This document shows positions 39,960-64,000 of a stretch of DNA of 64,000 bases, one piece after another. Both the position numbers and the translations under genes were made by a program. The notes under the pieces were generated by a model. That model saw only the letters and a list, made by a program, of their open reading frames with translations. It had not been told where the DNA came from and ran no database searches. This DNA comes from Methylobacterium nodulans ORS 2060. GTDB taxonomy: Bacteria; Pseudomonadota; Alphaproteobacteria; Rhizobiales; Beijerinckiaceae. How positions within the stretch are numbered: position 1 is the stretch's first letter; every line of letters begins with the position of its first letter. The DNA lies in contig NC_011894.1 in assembly GCF_000022085.1 (NCBI RefSeq), positions 2,507,501 to 2,571,500 on the forward strand, written 5' to 3'.

Positions 39960-41579
39960 TCAATCGTCCTTTTGCGTGACGAGCTTGTCGGAGACGGTGT
40001 CGGGCACGGTACCGGCGCCATTCTCGGGCAGGCCGTACTCCTCCCGCATGTCTCGCTCGCGGGCGCGCTGCCGGTAGACGTCCTCGATGTCGACGCCGAG
40101 GTCGTTGGCGATCATCTCGTCGGTCATAACGCCCATGTTGCGGTAGGTCTCATGGGCCTTGGCGGTCTTGAGATCGTCGGCCTGGGGCTTCGGCGAGCCA
40201 CGCCACTCAGCGCGGCAGGCGGCGGTGCGGTTGGCCATGAAGCCGTCGATCCCACCTGGGAACGGGATCGCGCCGCTCTCGATCTCCTCCTCGAGCCAGC
40301 CCTCGTAATGGGGCTGGCAGAAGGGCGCGACGATGTTCCGGCGGCGGTAGAGAGTGATCTGGAAGATCTCACCCGTCGCCATTCTGACCGACGAGTAGGT
40401 CGCGTTCGTGTAGTCGCCGGTCCCGCTCTCGTAGGTCAGGCCAAGGCAGCGGAGGAGTTCGCGAAGCAGAAACAGCGCTTGGTCCTTGTAGTCGGACGCG
40501 GATCCTTGCGCTGAATGGAACGTGAGCTCTTGGCCGGGAAAGAGGTGCGCGAAGCGACCCTTCTCCCCAAGGTCGATCGTCGTGCCCTTGTACCAGCCAT
40601 CCTGCATCGACGCCCAGCAATCGAAGGCCGTCAGGCCTTCGCTGTGCATCCGCGCCTGTTCCTGGGGGGTGAGGAGCCCTTTGAGCACCTCCTCGGTCGG
40701 CTCGTTCGACTTCACGGTCGCCGCGAAGACTGCGCGGATCAGCGCGGCGGTCAGCGTTGCGTCCGCGAGCTGGTCGAACTGGCGAGCGACCTGGAGCGCC
40801 GGCACCAGGGGCGAGATACCCCGGTACTGACCCGCGACGCCGTCGAAGACATGACCGATGCGCACCCGCCCGCCGGCCTCGCGCGCCCTGACCTCGATCT
40901 CGACGTCGGAGAGGCCCTGGCGGCGCCAGAAGATGTAGGATTGGGGCGCCCAGTCCTGATCCATGCGCACGCCTTGGACGAGGCGAGGGTACTCCGACCG
41001 CTGTGATAGGCGGTGGGGCGGAATGAGCCGCACCTTGGTGCCGTACTGTCCTCCAGGTCGGGTCTTCCACGCTGTTTCGGAGACGATCTCACCGGGCGCG
41101 AACCAGCCGCGGAACGCGGCCGCCTGCAACTGCCCGAAGCTGCGACGGCACTCGATATCGCACTCGTAGGGGTTCCGTGCCCATAGTTCGAAGCGCTGCT
41201 CGATCAGCCGACCAAGCTTGCTGGCCTCGCCCTCGGTGAGACCGAGGGCGACGGCGTCGGGCAGCGCCGAGAGGCGCAGGCCGGTGCCGACGGTGTTGGC
41301 CACTGCCTGGTCAACGGCGCCAGCGACCCACCCGCTGTTGTGGATGATGTCGTTGGCGCGGCCCGCTGCCCGCCACCACGCCTGCTGGACCTCATCGGAG
41401 GCGTCGCGCACTGGCGGGTTCCAGCCGCGAAACAAGGGTCCATGGCCGCCTCGCATGTAGCCGGACGCCCACGACGGTACGGATGCTCGCGGCTGTGGCC
41501 GGCTGCCGGAGACGGCCGGCACGCCGCTCGGCATCGAGCCCTGCCGGATCCGAGGCACAACCGACACCATCCGCATCAC
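39960..41579 (-). CDS. phage portal protein, lambda gpB family, 539 aa
   Basis: Family signatures: NDIIHNSGWVAGAVDQAVANTVGTGLRL, ECRRSFGQLQAAAFRGWFAPGE, GQYGTKVRLIPPHRLS, HVFDGVAGQYRGISPLVPAL, then LLRELLRCLGLTYESGTGDYTNATYSSVRM. It forms the dodecameric DNA gateway at one capsid vertex. Its start overlaps the terminase stop by 4 nt (ATGA). Confidence 0.9.
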   Translation of the reverse strand: MMRMVSVVPRIRQGSMPSGVPAVSGSRPQPRASVPSWASGYMRGGHGPLFRGWNPPVRDASDEVQQAWWRAAGRANDIIHNSGWVAGAVDQAVANTVGTGLRLSALPDAVALGLTEGEASKLGRLIEQRFELWARNPYECDIECRRSFGQLQAAAFRGWFAPGEIVSETAWKTRPGGQYGTKVRLIPPHRLSQRSEYPRLVQGVRMDQDWAPQSYIFWRRQGLSDVEIEVRAREAGGRVRIGHVFDGVAGQYRGISPLVPALQVARQFDQLADATLTAALIRAVFAATVKSNEPTEEVLKGLLTPQEQARMHSEGLTAFDCWASMQDGWYKGTTIDLGEKGRFAHLFPGQELTFHSAQGSASDYKDQALFLLRELLRCLGLTYESGTGDYTNATYSSVRMATGEIFQITLYRRRNIVAPFCQPHYEGWLEEEIESGAIPFPGGIDGFMANRTAACRAEWRGSPKPQADDLKTAKAHETYRNMGVMTDEMIANDLGVDIEDVYRQRARERDMREEYGLPENGAGTVPDTVSDKLVTQKDD

Positions 41580-43648
41580 CTGCCGTTGAGGCGCGCCGCG
41601 CGGGCTGCCATGCGAGCCGCGAGCGTCTCGCGGAGGGACTTCTGGGCCACCACGGCCTGGGGCGGTCCGGCGGGCGCTGGAACCTCCGGAACCGGCTTCG
41701 GGGGCTCCTCGAAGGGCACCTGTGGTGCGCTCCCCGCCGCCGGCAGCGGCGGGGGCGCAGTGTCGTCCCAGTCCCGCATGACGCCTTCCGGGATGCGCTG
41801 CACGTTCAGCAGGTAGCCGGCCGCAGCCGCGAGTGCCTCGCAGTCGAGGAAGTGGTTCTCGGCCGAGATCGGCGTCCAGACTGGCTTGCCGGCGACGATC
41901 TCCCGGACCTCCGAGACGAGCTGCTGACAGTACCGGGCCGGCACGTCGGAGGGCACGTGGAGCGAGCCCGGCCGGCCGATCGGCGTCAGGAGCCGCGAGG
42001 TGACGAGGCTCTTGAAGAAGTCCGAGTCGAGGGTCGCCAGGTCCACGCTGAAGCGCGCCGCCCTGCCCTTTGCGTCGACCTCATGCTTCTTCACCGTCAG
42101 CGGCTGCGTCCGGGTCGCCCTGCCCTTCGTCGGGCTGACCAGCCAGTCGTAGCGCCGGCAGAACTCGTAGACCTTGTGGACGTCGCCGGCGTCGGGCTTG
42201 TCAGGCCTGAAGCCGGAATCGATCAGCGCCTTCTCGATGTGGAGGCCCCCGTAGGCACTCGTGAGTGCGTCCGCGAGGTCGTCCCAGATCTCCTCGCCAT
42301 CGGTCGGGCCAAGCAGCTCCTCGGCCTCAATCAGCCAGGAGGCGCCGCGGGCGCCGAAGCCGCGCACCACGTAGTAGATCGAGCGCCTCTGGACGTCGAT
42401 GCCGGCGACGAGGCGCATCACCTCACGCGGCACCTCGCCCAGCCGGTAGGGCACGATCTTCGCCCGCACCGATTCCGCCTTCGGCGCGTTCATCGGCGCT
42501 TCGGCGTAGACCTCGCCAGCCTTGTTGACAGAGCCCTGGATCGCCTCGTGGTCGCTGGTCAGGCGGGCGAGCATCAACTCCTCGACCCGCTCGCCCCAAG
42601 TCACGAAGGGCGAGGCGAGGCCCGAGACCCACAGCGACAGGACCGTGGAATCGGGAGCCTCACCCTCGACCGCACCGTCCGGCCGGATTGTCTGCCCGGG
42701 CGCGACGAACACGCCACGCGCATTCATCTCGGGCTTCAACTCCTCGGTGATGACGCAGCCGTGCACCGGGCAGCAGAGGAACGTCTCGCGGCGCGCTTGC
42801 GCGGGCGTCGCGTCCTTGGGGGCCTTCAGGTCCTTGAGCCGCGGGATGAACCATTCCGAGCAGGACGGGCAGCGCCACGCCCAATGGTGGCGGGTGCCGC
42901 TCTGCCACTTCACCCAGATCGGGCTGTCGAGGACGGAGGGGTCCGCCACCTTCCAGAATTCGAGGCCCGAGCGCTCGCAGCGCTCGGTCTCGACCCGACC
43001 ACGCTTCGGGGTCGAGGTGACCGCAATCTTGCGGTCCGCATAGGTGTCCGCGCGCGCCTTGGCGAGGGTGAAGGGATCTCCCTCGCCCCGCACGCCGCGG
43101 AGCATCTTGTCGTACTCGTCGATGTAGACGTCGCCGGCCTGATCCGAGGCCAGCGAGGTCGCCGAGCCGGCCCAGGCCAGGCGCACCGACACGCCGTTGA
43201 CCGTCTTCCGGGTCTTCTTGTTCCGCTTGCCGCGAGCGACGAGGCCAGCGAGCCGCTCGGCCTCGTCGAACAGCTTCATGAGCCGGGGCTCGAACTGCTC
43301 GGAGACGAAATCCTTCGAGGGGCCCACGTAGAGCTGCGGGCGCGGCCGAGTGTCGAGCCGCCAGCCGATGACGTCGAGGATCCCGTCCGTTTTGCTCGAC
43401 TGAGTGCCCGTGATGAGCGCGCAGACCTCGTAGCGCGGATCCTCGAAGAACCGCTCGAACGGGATGATGTAAGGGGTTAGCCCAGGGTCACGAGAACCGG
43501 GTACGCCGGCGCTGAGGGGATACACGCGGTTTGCGCGTGCCCACGCGTCGGGGCTTGTCTGCGGCCTTGGCTCCCACAGCTTCGCCAGCCGGGCCAGCGC
43601 CGCCGGCCGTGTCTGCAGCTCGCTTCGCAGCCGCTCCGAAAGCGTCAT
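41576..43648 (-). CDS. terminase large subunit, GpA family, 690 aa
   Basis: The ATPase motor has a deviant Walker A GTQSSKT at residues 81-87 and Walker B VYIDEYDKM. A zinc-ribbon pair follows (CPSCSEWF and CCPVHGC). The C-terminal nuclease half includes VAGIDVQRRSIYYVVRGFG and LIDSGFRPDKPDAGDVHKVYEFC. It cuts concatemers and pumps DNA into proheads. Its start lies 161 nt inside the small-subunit gene. Confidence 0.93.
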   Translation of the reverse strand: MTLSERLRSELQTRPAALARLAKLWEPRPQTSPDAWARANRVYPLSAGVPGSRDPGLTPYIIPFERFFEDPRYEVCALITGTQSSKTDGILDVIGWRLDTRPRPQLYVGPSKDFVSEQFEPRLMKLFDEAERLAGLVARGKRNKKTRKTVNGVSVRLAWAGSATSLASDQAGDVYIDEYDKMLRGVRGEGDPFTLAKARADTYADRKIAVTSTPKRGRVETERCERSGLEFWKVADPSVLDSPIWVKWQSGTRHHWAWRCPSCSEWFIPRLKDLKAPKDATPAQARRETFLCCPVHGCVITEELKPEMNARGVFVAPGQTIRPDGAVEGEAPDSTVLSLWVSGLASPFVTWGERVEELMLARLTSDHEAIQGSVNKAGEVYAEAPMNAPKAESVRAKIVPYRLGEVPREVMRLVAGIDVQRRSIYYVVRGFGARGASWLIEAEELLGPTDGEEIWDDLADALTSAYGGLHIEKALIDSGFRPDKPDAGDVHKVYEFCRRYDWLVSPTKGRATRTQPLTVKKHEVDAKGRAARFSVDLATLDSDFFKSLVTSRLLTPIGRPGSLHVPSDVPARYCQQLVSEVREIVAGKPVWTPISAENHFLDCEALAAAAGYLLNVQRIPEGVMRDWDDTAPPPLPAAGSAPQVPFEEPPKPVPEVPAPAGPPQAVVAQKSLRETLAARMAARAARLNGR

Positions 43649-46436: not shown

Positions 46437-46934
46437 ATGACAGACTCCGTCTCCACCAACTCCGTAGAACTCGCCAGTGACATCATCTCGGCTTACGTCT
46501 CGAACAACCCGGTGCCAGCCGCGAGCCTGCCGGAGCTGATCAAGGCCGTCTATGAGACGCTCAGCAACCTCACGAACCCGCCCGCGCCGGCCGTAGAGGA
46601 GACCCCCAAGGCGAGCCCGGCCCAGATCAGGAAGTCGATCACGCCGGACCACCTGATCAGCTTCATCGACGGCAAGCCGTACAAGAGCCTGAAGCGGCAC
46701 CTCACCAAGCACGGCATGACGCCGGAGGACTACCGCACGAAGTTCGGGCTCCCGGTGACGTACCCGATGGTGGCCGAGACCTACGCGACCCAGCGTTCGG
46801 AGCTCGCAAAGAGCATTGGGCTTGGCCAGAAGCGTCAGGAGGCGGCGAAGGCGGCCGCCAAGGCCGCCACGCCTGATGCCATCGTGAAGGCGCCTGCGAA
46901 GACCAAGCGGCCGCGTAAGCCCGCCGCGGAGTAG
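46437..46934 (+). CDS. Ros/MucR-family transcriptional regulator, 165 aa
   Basis: Family core: PAQIRKSITPDHLISFIDGKPYKSLKRHLTKHGMTPEDYRTKFGLP and VTYPMVAETYATQRSELAKSIGLG. The Ros zinc finger's cysteines are absent (SFIDG where Ros has C..C), so it probably uses the zinc-free variant known from Mesorhizobium relatives. The C-terminal tail is Lys/Ala/Pro-rich (KAPAKTKRPRKPAAE). MucR proteins bind AT-rich DNA, repressing virulence, motility and phage-like genes. GGA lies 7-9 nt before the ATG. Confidence 0.88.
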   Translation: MTDSVSTNSVELASDIISAYVSNNPVPAASLPELIKAVYETLSNLTNPPAPAVEETPKASPAQIRKSITPDHLISFIDGKPYKSLKRHLTKHGMTPEDYRTKFGLPVTYPMVAETYATQRSELAKSIGLGQKRQEAAKAAAKAATPDAIVKAPAKTKRPRKPAAE

Positions 46935-49526: not shown

Positions 49527-50033
49527 ATGACCGACTCCGTCTCCACCAACTCCGTAGAACTCGCCACCGACATCGTTTCGGCCTACATCTCGAACAACAA
49601 CGTACCTGCATCCGAACTGCCGGCCCTGATCCAGAGCGTCCATGCAGCGCTCGGCGCTCTGGGGAAGCCGGCCGCTCCGGCCGTAGAGGAGGCACCTAAG
49701 GCGACCCCGGCCCAGATCAGGAAGTCTATCACGCCGGACCACATGATCAGCTTCATCGACGGCAAGCCGTACAAGAGCCTGAAGCGGCACCTCACCAAGC
49801 ACGGCATGACGCCGGAGGACTACCGGGCGAAGTTCGGCCTACCCGTCACGTACCCGATGGTGGCCGAAAGCTACGCGGCCCAGCGTTCGGAGCTCGCCAA
49901 GAGCATCGGGCTTGGTCAGAAGCGCCAGGAGGCAGTGAAGGCGGCCGCCAAGGCCGCCGCGCCTGATGCCATCGTGACGGCGCCTGCGAAGGCCAAGCGG
50001 GCCCGCAAGGTCAAACCTGCAGCTGCCAAGTAA
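49527..50033 (+). CDS. Ros/MucR-family transcriptional regulator, 168 aa
   Basis: Very similar to the protein at 46437 (same opening MTDSVSTNSVELA and same core ending HGMTPEDY). It also lacks the zinc-finger cysteines. The ends differ (KRARKVKPAAAK). The two genes share upstream DNA, so they are recent duplicates. A strong hairpin follows at 50045-50076, and no micro-protein follows this copy. Confidence 0.88.
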   Translation: MTDSVSTNSVELATDIVSAYISNNNVPASELPALIQSVHAALGALGKPAAPAVEEAPKATPAQIRKSITPDHMISFIDGKPYKSLKRHLTKHGMTPEDYRAKFGLPVTYPMVAESYAAQRSELAKSIGLGQKRQEAVKAAAKAAAPDAIVTAPAKAKRARKVKPAAAK

Positions 50034-54340: not shown

Positions 54341-57300
54341 ATGCGCAAAACACATGCATTGCTGCTTGCCTTGGGGCTCATTGGCCAATCGAGCTCGACA
54401 GCTCTTGCGTTAGATGCGGCCGGCTACAATACTCGCGGGTACAGCTTTCAGAACAAGGGTGAGTACGATCGGGCGATCGCCGACTACAATCAAGCCTTAC
54501 GGCTCGACCCCAAATTGACCGCCGCTTACGTCAATCGTGGGTTCACCTTCCGAAGCAAGGGTGAGTACGATCGGGCGATCGCCGACTACAATCAAGCCTT
54601 ACGGCTCGACCCCAGGTCTGTAATCGCTTACAATAATCGCGGCGACGCCTTCTACCACAAAGGCGACTATGAGCGAGCGATCGCAGATTATAACCGAGCT
54701 TTACAGTTGGACCCCAAGCATCCGATCGTCTACAACAATCGCGGGTTCGCCTTTCACGGCAAAGGAGAGTACGACAGAGCAATTGCAGACTACAATCAAG
54801 CCCTGCAGCTTGATCCTAATTACACATTTGCATACAATAATCGCGGATTTGCATTTCAGGGCAAGGGTGAATACGATCGAGCTATTGCAGACTACAGCCA
54901 AGCCCTGCGTCTCGACCCCAAATACGCAATCGCCTACACCAATCGTGGGGACGTTTTTCGGAGCAAAGGTGAGTACAACCGGGCGATCGCCGACTATAAT
55001 CAAGCCCTACAGTTCGATCCTAAGCCCATAATCGCTTACAACAATCGCGGTCTCGCCTTTCAGAATATGGGCGAATACGATCGAGCAATTTCGGATTACA
55101 CTGAAGCCTTACGGCTCGAACCTAAATACGTGATTGCCGTTGTCAATCGTGCAGATGCCTTTCGGATCAAGGGTGAGTACGATCGCGCAATAGTTGACTA
55201 CGACCAAGCCCTCCATCTTAACCCAAATTACGCTATAGCCTACAACAATCGAGGATTGGCCTTTCAGAACAAGGGTGAATACGATCGAGCTATTGCAGAC
55301 TACAGCCAAGCCCTGCGTCTCGATCCCAAATACGTAATCGCCTTTGTCAATCGCGGGGACGCCTTTCGAAACAAAGGTGAAAATGACGTCGCGATCGCTG
55401 ACTACAATCAAGCCCTCCGTCTAAATCCAAGTTACAGTACTGCCTACAACACTCGCGGGCTGGCTTTTCAGAACAAGGGCGAGTACGATCGAGCGATTGC
55501 AGATTATGAACAGGCCATCCGGCTCGATCCCAAGTCGGCGATCGCCTACAACAATCGTGGGTTCGCCCTCCAAAGCAAAGGTGAGTACGATAGAGCAATC
55601 ACAGACTACAATCAAGCCTTACAGCTCAATCCCAAGTCCGCGATAACCTACACCAATCGCGGGTTCGTCTTCCAGAGCAAGGGTGAATACGATCGAGCAA
55701 TTGCAGACTATGATCTCGCCTTGCAGTTCGATCCAAAGTACGCGATCGCCTACACCAATCGTGGGGATGTTTTTCGGAGCAAAGGTGAGTACGATCGAGC
55801 AATTGCAAACTATGATCAAGCCATCCAGCTCAATCCAAAATACGTAGTAGCTTACAACAATCGTGGGCTAGCCCTCCAAAATAAGGGTGAGCCCGACCGG
55901 GCGATTGCAAATTACGACCAAGCCCTTCAGCTTAATCCCAGATACATAGTCGCCTACATCAATCGTGGGGATGCCTTTCGCAGCAAAGGTGAGTGCGATC
56001 GGGCGGTCTCCGATTATAATCAAGGTCTCGAACTTGACCACAATAACGTGCTTGCCTACAACAATCGTGGACTATGCTTCCAAAACAGAGGGGAGTACGA
56101 CCTGGCAATCGCAGATTACGATCATGCCCTGCAGATTGACCCCAAGTACGCAACCGCCTTTGTCAATCGGGGATTTGCGTTCCAGAAGAAGAGTGAATAC
56201 GATCGGGCAATCGCAGATTATGATCGCGCCTTGCAACTCGATCCCAAATCTGCAGTCGCCTACAACAATCGCGGGTTCGCCTTCCAAAGCAAGGGTGCGT
56301 ATGACCTCGCAATTGCGGATTACGATCATGCGTTGCTGCTTAAACCTGGGTTAGCAAACGCATATTATCATCGTGGAACGGTTTTCAGCTTTAAAGGCAA
56401 CCTTGATCACAGTATCTCTGATTTGAGTGAGGCCATACGGCTTAATCCCAAGTACGCCGAGGCTTATCAAGATCGGGGCATCACGTACCAGGCCAGAGGG
56501 GAACCGGACCGGGCTCTTGCAGATTTCGCTGAGGCTGCACGGCTGAAGCCTGAGCTTGAGGACGATGCAGCCTTTCTCACGGCCCGCCGCGAGGCGCAGG
56601 CAGCTCAAACTAGCCGGACCGCAGCCGCCGTAGTTGTTACAGCCGTCCAGACCTCGCCGGTCGTGTCTCCGCCCACGATGTCGGTCATCACACCACTTTC
56701 CGAGAGGCGGGTCGCGCTGGTGATTGGCAACGGTGCGTATACCTCCGTCGCCGCACTCGACAATCCGACGCGAGACGCCAGCGCTATCGCGCGCTCTTTG
56801 CGTCAAGCTGGCTTCAAGAGCGTTCGTTTGGAAAATGACCTCCGCTATGATGATCTGCGGCGAGCTCTGAACAGCTTCTCGGCCGAGGCTGACCAGGCTG
56901 ATTGGGCCGTGGTCTATTACGCTGGGCACGGCATTGAAGTCGGGGGCACTAACTACCTTGTGCCTGTCGATGCCCAGCTGAAGACGGACCGGGCCGTGCA
57001 GTTCGAAGCGGTTCCACTTGATCAAGTGCTGGGCAGCATCGAAGGCGCACGTAAGCTCCGTCTTGTGATCTTGGATGCCTGTCGTGACAATCCGTTCCTG
57101 CAGCAGATGACGCGCACAGTTTCGTCACGATCAGTGGGGCGCGGCTTGGCGAAGATCGAGCCAGAGACAAGTGGCACACTGGTGGCTTTTGCAGCCAAGC
57201 ACGGCCAAGTTGCACTAGATGTGCAGGATGGTCAGGCAAATAGCCCTTTCGCAACGGCCTTGATCAAGAACATTGCAAAACCTGACACTGAGATCCGAAA

Positions 57301-57409
57301 GATGTTTGGGTTAGTACACGATGATGTCATGGCAAGCACAGGTCGCAAGCAGGAGCCTTTCGTTTATGGTGCCCTCGGAGGTGAGGATTACTTTTTCAGT
57401 ATGCGCTAA
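54341..57409 (+). CDS. exported TPR-caspase (peptidase C14) protein, 1022 aa, 21 TPRs
   Basis: Signal peptide MRKTHALLLALGLIGQSSST then ALA. Twenty-one consecutive 34-residue TPRs of consensus NRGxAFQxKGEYDRAIADYNQALxLDPK are followed by an Ala-rich linker. The caspase-like domain (RVALVIGNGAYT) has His863 in YYAGHG and Cys914 in DACRDN. It is 204 residues, exactly six TPRs, longer than the copy at 9951. The catalytic domains are very similar, but DNA here is AT-richer in third positions. Likely a periplasmic or cell-surface protease module with a variable-length binding arm. Confidence 0.9.
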   Translation: MRKTHALLLALGLIGQSSSTALALDAAGYNTRGYSFQNKGEYDRAIADYNQALRLDPKLTAAYVNRGFTFRSKGEYDRAIADYNQALRLDPRSVIAYNNRGDAFYHKGDYERAIADYNRALQLDPKHPIVYNNRGFAFHGKGEYDRAIADYNQALQLDPNYTFAYNNRGFAFQGKGEYDRAIADYSQALRLDPKYAIAYTNRGDVFRSKGEYNRAIADYNQALQFDPKPIIAYNNRGLAFQNMGEYDRAISDYTEALRLEPKYVIAVVNRADAFRIKGEYDRAIVDYDQALHLNPNYAIAYNNRGLAFQNKGEYDRAIADYSQALRLDPKYVIAFVNRGDAFRNKGENDVAIADYNQALRLNPSYSTAYNTRGLAFQNKGEYDRAIADYEQAIRLDPKSAIAYNNRGFALQSKGEYDRAITDYNQALQLNPKSAITYTNRGFVFQSKGEYDRAIADYDLALQFDPKYAIAYTNRGDVFRSKGEYDRAIANYDQAIQLNPKYVVAYNNRGLALQNKGEPDRAIANYDQALQLNPRYIVAYINRGDAFRSKGECDRAVSDYNQGLELDHNNVLAYNNRGLCFQNRGEYDLAIADYDHALQIDPKYATAFVNRGFAFQKKSEYDRAIADYDRALQLDPKSAVAYNNRGFAFQSKGAYDLAIADYDHALLLKPGLANAYYHRGTVFSFKGNLDHSISDLSEAIRLNPKYAEAYQDRGITYQARGEPDRALADFAEAARLKPELEDDAAFLTARREAQAAQTSRTAAAVVVTAVQTSPVVSPPTMSVITPLSERRVALVIGNGAYTSVAALDNPTRDASAIARSLRQAGFKSVRLENDLRYDDLRRALNSFSAEADQADWAVVYYAGHGIEVGGTNYLVPVDAQLKTDRAVQFEAVPLDQVLGSIEGARKLRLVILDACRDNPFLQQMTRTVSSRSVGRGLAKIEPETSGTLVAFAAKHGQVALDVQDGQANSPFATALIKNIAKPDTEIRKMFGLVHDDVMASTGRKQEPFVYGALGGEDYFFSMR

Positions 57410-59429: not shown

Positions 59430-60116
59430 TCATTGGCGGATCTCAGCATACAAAGGGTTAGGTCTGCGCGTCGCGCCAGCTGTTACATATAGAGGCCCCG
59501 AAGGCCCTCTGCGTACCAAGTCGCCAACCTCGCAGAAGTCCAGGCGCTGCCCCTCCAGAATGCGCGCGGCCGCAGCCGGGAACTGCCCGACCGGCTCCGT
59601 GCCCGCATAGAGCACCGCCACGAGCTCGGCGCCGACCTTGTCCGAGAACCGCTGCAGCTGCTCAGGCCCGAACGGCCCCATCACGCGGTAGAAGGGGCGT
59701 TCCGCCTCGCCCTGCTGCCGGACCCGGACGAGGCGGCCCTCGTCCTCTAGCGCGAACACGCGGGGCGGCAGGCTCGCCATGACGCGGTCGTGGTAGGCCC
59801 AGAGCGCCGCGCGCCCGTCCATGCCACGATCCGCCCCGACGAACAGATAGCCCGGGACGGCGCGGCGGCGCGTCTCCCGGTACCGACCGCGATGCTCGAT
59901 TACGGCGCTGCTGGCGGGCACGCAGGTCGCAAAGCCTGCCGTCTCCAGCCCCTCGCGGATCTTCCGCTCGCGGGTGGGGTCGATCCGAACGACGTACCAG
60001 CGGCGGTCTCCATCGACCACGACCCGCAGCCGATGCAGCCGCACGTGGTGTGTCGGGGTGACCTTCGCGTCGAAGATCTTGGTGCGGTTGCGGCGGCGGT
60101 TCCGCTTCCGGGCCAT
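59430..60116 (-). CDS. NusG-like (NGN-domain) protein, phage-type antitermination factor, 228 aa
   Basis: A very basic head (MARKRNRRRNRTK) precedes a NusG N-terminal domain: RRWYVVRIDPTRERKIREGLE, then TAGFATCVPASSA and RRRAVPGYLFVGAD. This is the W-Y-V.....E..v...L...G...y.P.......r.r.....r.lfpGYvFv pattern. The C-terminal part lacks an obvious KOW motif, though FCEVGDLVRRGPSGPLYV may be a degenerate one. Specialised NusG paralogues bind RNA polymerase to suppress pausing and termination; here likely on early phage genes. Confidence 0.7.
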   Translation of the reverse strand: MARKRNRRRNRTKIFDAKVTPTHHVRLHRLRVVVDGDRRWYVVRIDPTRERKIREGLETAGFATCVPASSAVIEHRGRYRETRRRAVPGYLFVGADRGMDGRAALWAYHDRVMASLPPRVFALEDEGRLVRVRQQGEAERPFYRVMGPFGPEQLQRFSDKVGAELVAVLYAGTEPVGQFPAAAARILEGQRLDFCEVGDLVRRGPSGPLYVTAGATRRPNPLYAEIRQ

Positions 60117-60203: not shown

Positions 60204-60608
60204 TCAGGCCCGCAACCGGCCCAGCCCGGTCTTCTTCGCCAGCTCGGAGCGCTGCGCAGCGTAGTTTGCCGCCGTCATCGGGTAGTCGGGCGGCAGGCCC
60301 CACTTCGCCCGGTACTGCTCGGGCGTCAGCCCGCGCCCGGCAAGGTGCCGCTTGAGCGTCTTGTAGGGCTTGCCATCCTCCAGCGAGATGATCGCGTCCG
60401 GCGTCACGGTCTTGCGGATCGGCACGGGCGGGACGAGGGCCGGCACTTCGGGCTCGGCCGGCTGGCCCAGGCCTGCAAGGGCACCGTGCAACGACGCGAT
60501 GAGCACGGGCAGTTCCGCGGCAGGGACGGCGTTGTGGGCGACGTAGGCGCTGACGATGCGGCCGGTGAGGCCGGCGAGGTCGGGGGACTGGGTGTCGATC
60601 TCGGGCAT
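60204..60608 (-). CDS. Ros/MucR-family regulator, 134 aa
   Basis: Core PVPIRKTVTPDAIISLEDGKPYKTLKRHL, then GLTPEQYRAKWGLPPDYPM and YAAQRSELAKKTGLG. It lacks both zinc-finger cysteines and one of the usual His residues (AGRG), so it is a zinc-free variant more distant from the copies at 46437 and 49527. It lies immediately left of the large G/C-tract inverted repeat and is transcribed away from it, so that region is its probable control site. Confidence 0.85.
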   Translation of the reverse strand: MPEIDTQSPDLAGLTGRIVSAYVAHNAVPAAELPVLIASLHGALAGLGQPAEPEVPALVPPVPIRKTVTPDAIISLEDGKPYKTLKRHLAGRGLTPEQYRAKWGLPPDYPMTAANYAAQRSELAKKTGLGRLRA

Positions 60609-60680
60609 CGGGATCTCCTCTATGTCTCTGAACTACCAACTGTTCTTCATCTGGAACGGCGGTGGCGCACCAGTCCGGTC

Positions 60681-60962
60681 CTGGGGTTTCGGTGGGGTTT
60701 TGGGGGGTTAGGGTGGGGTTTTTTTTCGAGAAACCCCACACCAAAATCTGCTGATCTGTCAGAGACTTAGAGGTGTTTTGGGGGTTATTGGGGTTTTTTC
60801 TCATTCTTACGCGTGCGCAGGAAAGGTCGCGCGTGAAGATTGGCGAAAAAACCCCGAAAACCCCCAAATCGGCCATAAACCCCTGTCCCACCGTCAGATT
60901 TTCCGTGGGGTTTCCGGTGGGGTTACATTTTTCGAAACCCCACAAACCCCAGCAGAAACCCC
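60681..60962. repeat. G/C-tract array forming a large inverted repeat, candidate ori or control region
   Basis: More than a dozen GGGG or CCCC tracts flanked by T or A runs (GTGGGGTTT / AAACCCCAC) occur in 280 bp. Three pairs mirror exactly around 60822.5: AAAATCTG at 60743 and CAGATTTT at 60895; TTTGGGGGTT at 60777 and AACCCCCAAA at 60859; GGGGTTTTTT at 60790 and AAAAAACCCC at 60846. GAAACCCCAC (60730) and GTGGGGTTTC (60905) pair with a 1-nt offset. The centre is TCTTACGCGTGCGC...CGCGCGTGAAGA. Flanks hold two further GTGGGG...TTTTTCGA...ACCCCAC hairpins. Confidence 0.8.
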
Positions 60963-60974
60963 ATTCGCGCGTGC

Positions 60975-62603
60975 TCACCTCCCTTCCTCCGGCGCCTTGC
61001 AGAGCGCGTAGCGGTTGCCCCGCTTCTCGTCGGCGACCATCTCGATGCGCATGCCGGCCACGACGCGACCGCGGACGCCCGTAAGCCAGCGGCCGAGGCT
61101 GCGGGTCGAGATCGCGGACCCCTTGCCGGCCTGGCGCATCAGCACCTCGCGCAAGGACGGCCGCAGCGGGTGCCCGTCGGTGCCGGTCTCCTGCGCGGCC
61201 GCGGCGATGTCGCCGGTGGCGTAGTAGGCGCCCTCGATGAGGTGCTCGCCCCAGGCCGTGATGAGCTCCGACAGCGCGGCGCGCTCGGGATCCTCGCCCC
61301 GCGCGATGTCCATGCTCGCGACCGGGTCGGCCTCGCCGAGCCACACCAGCGCGGAGCGGACCGTGTCCGACCACGCCCCGTAGGAGCCGATCGGGCCGCA
61401 GACCCGCGGCGCGCCGGCGGCGCGGTAGGCCCGGGCGATGGTGAGGGCGGCGGCCACGTAGGCGCCGCGGTCGGCCATCACGGCCTGCATCGGGTTCGAC
61501 GCGAACTCGCGCTGCTCCGGCCGCTCCACGCCGGCGTCGAGCCGGCACAGCACGGCCCGCCGCGTCATGTCGCCGATCAAGGTCAAGTTGTTGCCGGTGG
61601 CGAACACCGCGGCCCGGCACTCGATCTCCGGCACCTCGGATCGGCCCAGGATGCGCACCCTGACCACCGGCCGTTCCGTCACTTGGCAGAGCGCGTCTCC
61701 GCCGAGTTCGCCGTTGACGTTGTCGAGCGAGATCAGGGGCGTACCGCTGAGAAGGAGTGCGCCGAGACGCTTCTCGGTCTCCTCCTCGGTGCGCCCGACC
61801 GCCATGACGGCACAGGGGCGCCCGGTGACGATGGCGGCGATCAGATCGACGAGATACGACTTGCCGGTGCCCGCGGAGGAGGCCCGGATCCCGTGACAGG
61901 GCGCCGAGGGCAGCGTGGGCCGCAGCACCGCGGTCAGGATGCCGGACAGTGCCACGGCGCGATCCACGGGCCCGACGAAGGGAAATTCCTGCAGGGGCCC
62001 CAGCAGAAGCGCGAGCGCGGCCTGCGCCTCGGCGCGACTCGGCCGCTCCGGGATCGCCGGCATGACCACGGCCTCGTCCGGCATCAGGAAGAGCCGGGTC
62101 GCGGGGTCGTAGCCGGGCTCGTCGAGGAGCGAGCCGTCGGGCCGCAGGGTCGGAATCGTGGTGATGCCGGAGATCGGCGGAAGCCGCCACCGGCCCTCGC
62201 GCGACAGCAGGATCGCCACGGCCTTGTCGGGCGGATCGATGTTCACCCAGCGCTGGGCGCGCCCGTCGAAGCGCTGGAACTTGGCGACCTGGGCCAGGAT
62301 GTCGGCCAGGGAATCTGCGGTCAGGGATTTCAGCTTGGCGACGAGGGCGAGGCCGCCGTTGGCGGTCGGGGTCGGCTCCACGACCGGCCGCACCAGCGCG
62401 CCGGCGCGGGCGAACACCGCGGCCCCGCTCTCGATCAGGGCGTCCTCGGCCTCGTCGACGACCCGCGGCAGCTCGGAGGCCACCACCTTGATCACCGGCA
62501 GGAGACCCGACGATCCCGACGCGCCGCCGGCACCCTGGGCACCGGCATCACGAAGCCGTTTAGCCCGGCGGGCCTGATCGAGGTCGATCGGCGCCGTCAT
62601 CAT
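60975..62603 (-). CDS. phage P-loop replication ATPase/helicase, 542 aa
   Basis: MMTAPIDLDQARRAKRLRDAG starts in an ATGA overlap with the preceding gene. The middle has a clear Walker A, ASSAGTGKSYLVDLIAAI (about 242-259), and Walker B-like LISLDNVNG. Sensor-like AVFATGNNLTLIGDMTRRAV and VRVRILGRSEVPEIECRA follow. The C-terminus has a winged-helix-like region (GSAISTRSLGRWLTGV). It resembles DUF927/primase-associated helicases of phages and plasmids that start replication. The G/C palindrome lies just beyond its stop. Confidence 0.75.
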   Translation of the reverse strand: MMTAPIDLDQARRAKRLRDAGAQGAGGASGSSGLLPVIKVVASELPRVVDEAEDALIESGAAVFARAGALVRPVVEPTPTANGGLALVAKLKSLTADSLADILAQVAKFQRFDGRAQRWVNIDPPDKAVAILLSREGRWRLPPISGITTIPTLRPDGSLLDEPGYDPATRLFLMPDEAVVMPAIPERPSRAEAQAALALLLGPLQEFPFVGPVDRAVALSGILTAVLRPTLPSAPCHGIRASSAGTGKSYLVDLIAAIVTGRPCAVMAVGRTEEETEKRLGALLLSGTPLISLDNVNGELGGDALCQVTERPVVRVRILGRSEVPEIECRAAVFATGNNLTLIGDMTRRAVLCRLDAGVERPEQREFASNPMQAVMADRGAYVAAALTIARAYRAAGAPRVCGPIGSYGAWSDTVRSALVWLGEADPVASMDIARGEDPERAALSELITAWGEHLIEGAYYATGDIAAAAQETGTDGHPLRPSLREVLMRQAGKGSAISTRSLGRWLTGVRGRVVAGMRIEMVADEKRGNRYALCKAPEEGR

Positions 62604-63169
62604 GGTGCCTCGACCAGGATGCGGGGCATCCTGACCTTCCTGAGCATCGCCTCCACGGCCTCGCCGTGGGCGATGTCCTGCGTCAGCAGCGTGCCGGCTC
62701 CCAGGAGCGCAGGCCGGGCAAGGGCGTCGTTGATCACCACCACGCCGCGCCAGCCCGCCGCCAGCCAGCCGACGGGGTCGCGGTGCACCACGAGCGGCTC
62801 CTTGTCCGCGAGCGGGCGCCACAGGCTGTCCTCGCCGAGCATGCCGACCGCGCCGAGCCACGTCGCGAGGCGGCCTGCGGCGGGATCCCAGGCCACGACG
62901 TCGACCAGCGCGCCGCCGGCGTCCCGGGCCGGGATCGTGTAGGCCTCGACCGCGCCCGGCCCTTCGCCGCCGTCGTGCCGCGCGAAGCCGAAGCGCTGTC
63001 GCTTCCCGAACACCACGAGGTCGCGCAGCACCAGGTCGACGCCATGCCGAGCGCAGGCGAGATGCCGGCCCTCGACGCCGCGGCGCCGGAACGCCGCGAA
63101 GTCGGCGCGCCCCAGCGGCAGCCCACGGGCCTGCTCCCGTTCCGGGTCGAGGGCGGGCCGCGCCCTCAT
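62600..63169 (-). CDS. phage replication-module hypothetical protein, 189 aa
   Basis: Start MRARPALDPEREQARGLPL overlaps the helicase stop by 4 nt (ATGA); the stop overlaps the next gene the same way. The sequence alternates alpha and beta (HLACARHGVDLVLRDLVVFGKRQRFGF, ALVDVVAWDPAAGRLATWLG, GWRGVVVINDALARPALL). The second half recalls a toprim-like or nucleotide-handling fold, but the catalytic residues are not clear. Coupling on both sides implies a role in replication. Confidence 0.6.
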   Translation of the reverse strand: MRARPALDPEREQARGLPLGRADFAAFRRRGVEGRHLACARHGVDLVLRDLVVFGKRQRFGFARHDGGEGPGAVEAYTIPARDAGGALVDVVAWDPAAGRLATWLGAVGMLGEDSLWRPLADKEPLVVHRDPVGWLAAGWRGVVVINDALARPALLGAGTLLTQDIAHGEAVEAMLRKVRMPRILVEAP

Positions 63170-64000
63170 GACAGCACCACCGTCACGGCATCGGCCGCGC
63201 GCGTGAGCCCGGTGTAGAGCCAGCGCCGCGCGGTCTCGCGAAAGGCGCAGCTCTCGTCGAACAGCACCACGCGATTCCACTGCGAGCCCTGCGCCTTGTG
63301 CACGGTGAGCGCGTAGCCGTACGTGAACTCGTCGAAGCCTCTGCGCTGCTTCGGGCTCAGCGCCTCTTCCTGGCCGTGGAAGAACTCGCTGCGTACCTCC
63401 ACCGGGACCGGCGCGGCGTCCGGGTCGTGGTCCGGCATGACCTCAAGTTCGACGATGGCGCCGTCGTTCTGCGCGACGTCGGCGACCTCCCAGAGCCCGC
63501 CGTTGAGCAGGCCCTTGTCCTTGTTGTTGCGCAGGCAAACGAGCCGGTCGCCGATCTCCGGGCCGGCCGGGTCGCGACCGTAGAGCCGTCGCACCTTCGC
63601 GTTCAGCCCGCGCCGGGTCTGGTTGCGACCGACCAGGATCTGGTCCGCGCGGAGCACGGCGCGCTGGCCGAGCGCCGCGCGCTGGATGACGCGGCTCTCG
63701 CCGTAGGCGCCGGCGGCGAGCCGCCCGCCCTGGCGCACGCGCATCGACAGCGCGATGATCGGGTTGTCCGCGGCCTGCCGATGCACCTCGGTGAGCATGA
63801 AATCGGGGTCGCCGCCCGTGAAGTAGCCAGCGCCGTCGACGGGCGGCAGCTGCGCGGGGTCGCCGAGCACGAGCACCTTGGTGCCGAAGCTCATCAGGTC
63901 TCGGCCAAGCTCAGGACCGACCATCGAGCACTCGTCGACGATGACGAGCGCGGCCGATGCGACGGGGCTGTCCTCGTTCAGCACGAAGGTCACGCTGCCG
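63166..64000 (-). CDS. RecD-like DNA helicase, 5' end beyond the window
   Basis: Visible parts: Walker B VIVDECSMVGPELGRDL, LVLGDPAQLPPVDGAG, TEVHRQAADNPII, and the SF1B C-terminal motif EFTYGYALTVHKAQGSQWNRVVLF. It ends RRWLYTGLTRAADAVTVVL. The Walker A and N-terminal domain lie beyond 64000. It unwinds DNA 5' to 3'; phages use such enzymes in replication or recombination. First visible gene of the right-end operon. Confidence 0.85.
   Translation of the reverse strand, partial: GSVTFVLNEDSPVASAALVIVDECSMVGPELGRDLMSFGTKVLVLGDPAQLPPVDGAGYFTGGDPDFMLTEVHRQAADNPIIALSMRVRQGGRLAAGAYGESRVIQRAALGQRAVLRADQILVGRNQTRRGLNAKVRRLYGRDPAGPEIGDRLVCLRNNKDKGLLNGGLWEVADVAQNDGAIVELEVMPDHDPDAAPVPVEVRSEFFHGQEEALSPKQRRGFDEFTYGYALTVHKAQGSQWNRVVLFDESCAFRETARRWLYTGLTRAADAVTVVLS

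Follow-up and report, generated by a model that had tools for sequence, protein, structure and literature searches.

The 282-bp segment at positions 60681-60962 of a 64,000-nucleotide stretch of Methylobacterium nodulans ORS 2060 (contig NC_011894.1, positions 2,507,501 to 2,571,500; hereafter the window) fills the gap between the stop codon of a replication ATPase gene and a mucR-like gene. It is best explained, with a probability of roughly 0.88, as the replication origin of a prophage, consisting of two opposed sets of iterons and loaded by the adjacent initiator-helicase. Most likely it is a new example of the origin types known from plasmid pWTY27 and from the Staphylococcus aureus pathogenicity islands (SaPIs) and other phage-inducible chromosomal islands (PICIs), and no new kind. 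The symmetry of the segment, its iteron array, the usual place of such arrays after this helicase family, the change of the iteron word between loci and the initiator-like fold were all computed here. A replication origin was among the options offered by the original prediction made for this segment, and that option is well supported.

Across an axis at 60822.5, 80 of 141 base pairs were found to pair in an ungapped count, as against a mean of 46 and a maximum of 59 in 1000 dinucleotide-block shuffles, confirming the claim that several motif pairs share one exact axis, with arms that pair beyond chance. The runner-up axis, at 60822.0 with 67 pairs in the same count, accounts for a fourth pair that had been described as offset by 1 nt. 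A repeat search returned inverted arms at 60682-60709/60936-60963 (82% complementary) and at 60743-60800/60845-60902 (72% complementary), both centred on 60822.5, and folding of the segment as single-stranded DNA gave -74.8 kcal/mol (z = -7.3), with none of 200 shuffles equally low. The arms are arrays of a short word and form no single continuous stem. Exact GGGGTTT occurs 15 times in the window, where 4.9 copies were expected and none of 100 shuffles got to 15, and 12 of these copies fall within 60683-60962.

The composite array at 60683-60962, a putative origin, holds 15 exact copies of GGGGTT (12 of them GGGGTTT) arranged mirror-symmetrically about the axis. The left outer module (60683-60737) has words at 60683, 60694, 60704 and 60715 and one inverted copy at 60731, and is followed by the left inner pair, GGGGGTTATTGGGGTTT, on the plus strand at 60780-60796. 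Beyond the spacer (60797-60848), a candidate strand-opening zone, lie the right inner pair of two inverted copies (60849-60866, minus strand), an extra lone inverted iteron between the inner and outer modules (60877-60883, minus strand) and the right outer module (60907-60962), with direct words at 60907 and 60919 and inverted copies at 60935, 60944 and 60956. In the orientation of the helicase gene the GGGGTT copies read F19 F31 F40 R57 R69 F98 F117 F126 / R186 R195 F244 R261 R272 R282 R293 (F, direct; R, inverted), which gives the order FFF-RR-F-FF / RR-F-RRRR. The G+C fraction of the segment in 100-bp windows is 0.46-0.59, compared with 0.67-0.76 in the flanking genes; at the centre, between the two iteron sets, it is 0.46-0.55, which is AT-richer than the flanks rather than AT-rich.

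Homologues of the helicase were collected with the ATPase protein as query (7 loci on genome contigs, 9 on viral contigs, and 48 phage and 21 plasmid records) and by alignment-based searches, which contributed the best 80 of 172 confirmed viral loci and, among 385 genomes of the class, 9 with a homologue, the present genome included. Nine of 115 loci were dropped for too little sequence past the stop codon, leaving 106, and removal of near-identical initiators left 84. An array was called by a main rule of at least two copies of an 8-letter word, then at least two inverted copies, in the 400 nt past the stop codon. Arrays of this kind were present at 68 of the 106 loci, 30 of them with six copies, as against 6 of 298 control stretches taken from these loci and none of the 106 shuffles. 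In the non-redundant set an opposed array was observed at 51 of 84 loci and after only 3 of 412 other open reading frames; two loci with a spurious-looking first word call (L129 and L115) were kept in this count and left out of the spacer-word count and the 6-letter mapping described below, L129 also being left out of the correlation of word with initiator. Direct copies, a spacer and then inverted copies make up the layout after homologous helicase genes, the array starting at a median of 12 nt past the stop codon, with an iteron spacing of 9 nt in 112 of 151 cases and spacers of 47-163 nt between the iteron sets. The array's location behind the initiator is a recurrent one, in plasmids as well as in viral contigs from several phyla. 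By the main rule, four of eight distinct plasmid records (L055, L056, L059 and L062) carried an array, and arrays were found in all four actinobacterial plasmids from Streptomyces and Saccharopolyspora (L158-L161), with the words CGTGGGAA, TGCAGGGA, ACTACCCG and AAACCCGG. A close but simple relative of the window array is that of L066, whose initiator is 64% identical and where GGGGTT is arranged as F52 F62 F71 / R132 R141 R151.

Different loci use different iteron words, among them TGCATAG, TGCGGGTA, CTTGGGAT, TGCAGGAT, GTTGGACC, GGGGTTT, GTGGGTT and GTGGGAAC. The same layout is kept with words lacking G-tracts (TGCATAG in L031/L032, GTTGGACC in L096); as the word differs between loci, G-quadruplexes are not the conserved property, and the suggested control by G-quadruplexes is not well supported. 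Word distance was correlated with initiator distance, with r values of 0.40 for the ATPase part, 0.43 for the C-terminal part and 0.35 for the last domain (permutation test on the last domain, 0/2000). A second word, AAACTGTCAG with its inverse CTGACAGTTT, was also seen in spacers, at times paired between the iteron sets (e.g., L055, L067 and L138); CTGACA/TGTCAG occurred in 18 of 49 spacers, where 1.7 were expected; the window itself contains TGTCA once, at 60757. Such a paired spacer word could serve as a signal for priming or be bound by a second protein.

The closest known counterpart is pWTY27, whose RepA is homologous to the window protein (tblastn E 2e-26, 31.9% over 63% of the query; 28% identity when aligned). 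According to PMC3583192, replication of this plasmid in S. lividans needs repA, repB and a 300-bp non-coding stretch for which the inner 149 bp could not stand in; RepA binds the iteron region specifically, protecting 405-447 and 462-509; and there were signs of bidirectional replication. With the word map placed on the coordinates of the plasmid record, the words of the inner FF and RR pairs fell inside the two RepA-protected spans and the outer words outside the inner 149 bp; the left inner pair of the window is the counterpart of the inner pair under the RepA footprint. As in the window, the array lies directly 3' of the gene for a homologous initiator, its order, FF-R-FF/RR-F-RR, closely parallels that of the window around the inner FF/RR pair, and many of the gaps are parallel (F to R 16-17, pair pitch 9-12). 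The two differ in that pWTY27 uses the word GTGGGAAC instead of GGGGTTT, has 10 words rather than 15 and a separate primase-polymerase (prim-pol) gene, repB, and is a plasmid, not a prophage.

PICI origins are described in PMC6092414 as lying 3' of the initiator gene and always having two iteron sets that flank an AT-rich region. The SaPI/PICI origins resemble the window segment in their position immediately 3' of the initiator gene (PMC6092414; for SaPI, PMC7581432), in the two iteron sets around a less GC-rich region and in the D5-like helicase fold. However, the window initiator appears only distantly similar, its array has nested outer modules, and the region has a large terminase gene of its own and is probably not a satellite dependent on a helper phage. 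The same paper states that no other known bacterial replicon shares the PICI arrangement; the present data speak against that clause. The view that no element of this design had been described likewise gives way to the nearly identical repeat order of pWTY27 and to the two iteron sets 3' of PICI initiators. In the staphylococcal cassette chromosome mec (SCCmec), the helicase Cch2 uses its C-terminal domain to bind repeats that lie directly downstream of the gene encoding it, and this putative origin is like the window segment in position; it differs in that binding there depends on the direct repeats, the inverted ones being dispensable for it (PMC7581432). The literature searched, with most subscription journals outside it, contained no family-wide account of this origin type in phages and no paper on plasmid pCM32.

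The initiator-helicase gene (60975-62603, minus strand; phrog_29234, E 1.4e-206) has its stop just before the array and encodes 542 aa with a superfamily 3 (SF3)/D5-like AAA+ core and a winged-helix-like C-terminal end. Its structure model (predicted local distance difference test score 83.9) matched D5, SaPI5 Rep, PriRep1 and NrS-1 in the PDB. No Pfam prim-pol was found among the five window genes tested, and in some homologues (L024, L055) a primase/polymerase is fused to the initiator. The region around the array includes a gene for a large terminase (phrog_15, E 4e-151; L011:968-3040, equal to window 41576-43648), together with a repressor gene and a weak match to a tail tape-measure protein (phrog_9570, E 2.4e-9), and is listed in IMG/VR as a viral contig of 64.9 kb.

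Several observations weigh against this reading of the segment. No array by the main rule was found at 33 of the 84 loci, and 21 lacked one under either of two laxer rules; these rules raised the yield to 63 of 84, while control stretches rose to 59 of 412 and 92 of 412, respectively. The main rule detected no array in the remaining four of the eight plasmid records (L057, L058, L060 and L061). Among eight later records, the three phages TPWB-08, RcXuper and DSS3_MAL1 (L154, L157 and L162) had none by either rule tried; phiAsp2 (L155), where the gene extends past the stretch, stands outside this count of eight. The archaeal virus vir525, with one word in both orientations, passed the looser rule only. 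The composite order is itself uncommon: in a mapping of 51 loci with exact 6-letter words, three had at least 10 words, namely the window (15), pWTY27 (10) and L071 (10, overlapping G-runs), and the others had 2 to 7. The spacer at 60797-60848 is just moderately AT-rich (G+C 0.53). Foldseek template modelling (TM) scores by query were low, at 0.28-0.39, and a PDB profile search returned chance or designed proteins only and no convincing initiator. Finally, given the ATPase part, the last domain retained a weak partial correlation with the word (r 0.087, p 0.04), which was exceeded by that of the ATPase part given the last domain (0.223). Because of this weak value and the larger contribution of the ATPase part, the last domain is not claimed as the word reader, and an assignment of word specificity to it was dropped.

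Among alternatives, an operator array through which the neighbouring Ros/MucR protein or some other transcription factor would control the early genes downstream is improbable. Both neighbours are as originally described, the regulator gene (60204-60608, minus strand; Pfam PF05443, ROS_MUCR, E 2.5e-45) starting about 75 bp from the array, and a mucR-like frame also lies beside the array in the three other copies in this genome and in L066. However, when MucR was sought by tblastn at the 115 helicase loci with flanks of a few kb, it was beside the array only in these copies and L066; a relative lies about 3 kb from the array in L055, and none is near most helicase loci with an array, so that dozens of arrays stand against few MucR neighbours and the operator option is not well supported. 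Furthermore, a search for GGGGTT alone found a cluster upstream of mucR at one of 16 loci retrieved with a mucR query, which was this prophage's own entry, and a scan of 60590-61050, a weak test for promoters, gave no sigma-70-like promoter. A simple operator, moreover, would not generally comprise some 15 sites mirrored about a single axis across 280 bp. The regulator is probably no part of the origin.

A DNA or RNA structure element, whether a cruciform, a G-quadruplex control or a long hairpin RNA or terminator read through from the helicase gene, is very improbable. The folding energy and the G-tracts would suit it, and the authors of PMC3583192 proposed that RepA may read a stem-loop. Several homologous arrays, however, are built of words without G-tracts, spacers of 47-163 nt would be long for an efficient hairpin, the scan of 60590-61050 found no terminator-like site, and an Rfam scan of the segment gave a single chance microRNA match (E 0.98); the conserved property is copies of a word at a pitch of about 9 bp, as expected of protein sites. 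Least probable is another site of the phage life cycle (recombination or attachment, partition, or the start of packaging), for although inverted arrays of short words are generally known in partition and recombination sites too, the location behind the initiator recurs across plasmids and viral contigs of several phyla, the corresponding region of pWTY27 is needed for replication (PMC3583192), and none of five neighbouring genes tested matched a partition or integrase family.

For the preferred reading, a replication origin, the following course is the most likely. The SF3/D5-like initiator-helicase would be made from the gene ending just before the array, and several subunits would bind the GGGGTTT iterons in the two opposed, mirror-ordered sets. 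By analogy with SaPI, SCCmec and simian virus 40 (SV40)-type initiators, the protein may then open the spacer that separates the inner sets, which is less GC-rich, and load as two oppositely facing helicases, which would lead to bidirectional replication upon phage induction. What we infer is that this protein binds the iterons, that the spacer opens, that two hexamers are loaded and that the origin is active in this prophage.

The segment was found at three further places on the same contig, 97-98% identical, within a mosaic of DNA homology. Of the search of other phages and genomes proposed earlier, these copies were the yield: no DNA-similarity match came from the phage and plasmid collections, and matches in 98 other genomes were limited to two, of 28 and 33 bp. 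At the three copies the initiator frame aligns over all 542 residues (97.8, 98.2 and 98.7%), the mucR-like frame is 82-87% identical, and no second cluster lies within 60 kb around any copy (elsewhere at most 2 exact GGGGTTT per 300 nt). It is conceivable, at somewhat less than even odds for the whole, that temperate phages, actinobacterial plasmids and phage-like plasmids share a single widespread class of replicon, marked by a mirror-iteron origin 3' of a D5-like initiator, with word and initiator diversifying together, and that one induced prophage could fire all four origins here, since the four prophage-like regions have a common word and initiators that are nearly identical. If the four origins of this chromosome are indeed cross-compatible, co-replication of its prophages would become directly testable. 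Opposed short repeats just past the stop codon of a D5-like initiator would provide a simple rule for locating the origins of many uncultured phages, and dozens of natural initiator/word pairs become available for learning how D5-like helicases read DNA. The data also bear on the question of whether satellites, phages and plasmids have a common origin type.

Upstream of the initiator gene, on the same strand, lie a gene for a 190-aa protein with no family match (62600-63172, minus strand) and a Dda/RecD-like helicase gene that extends past the window end (63166-63993, minus strand; phrog_325). A NusG-like putative antiterminator (59430-60116; Pfam PF02357, E 4.7e-9) adjoins the mucR gene, and two more mucR-like frames in the same region, at 46443-46835 and 49533-49925, are 53% and 58% identical to 60204-60608. 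The frame at 54341-57409 encodes a 1022-aa protein which, as read from its translation, has many tetratricopeptide (TPR)-like repeats and a caspase-like-looking end.
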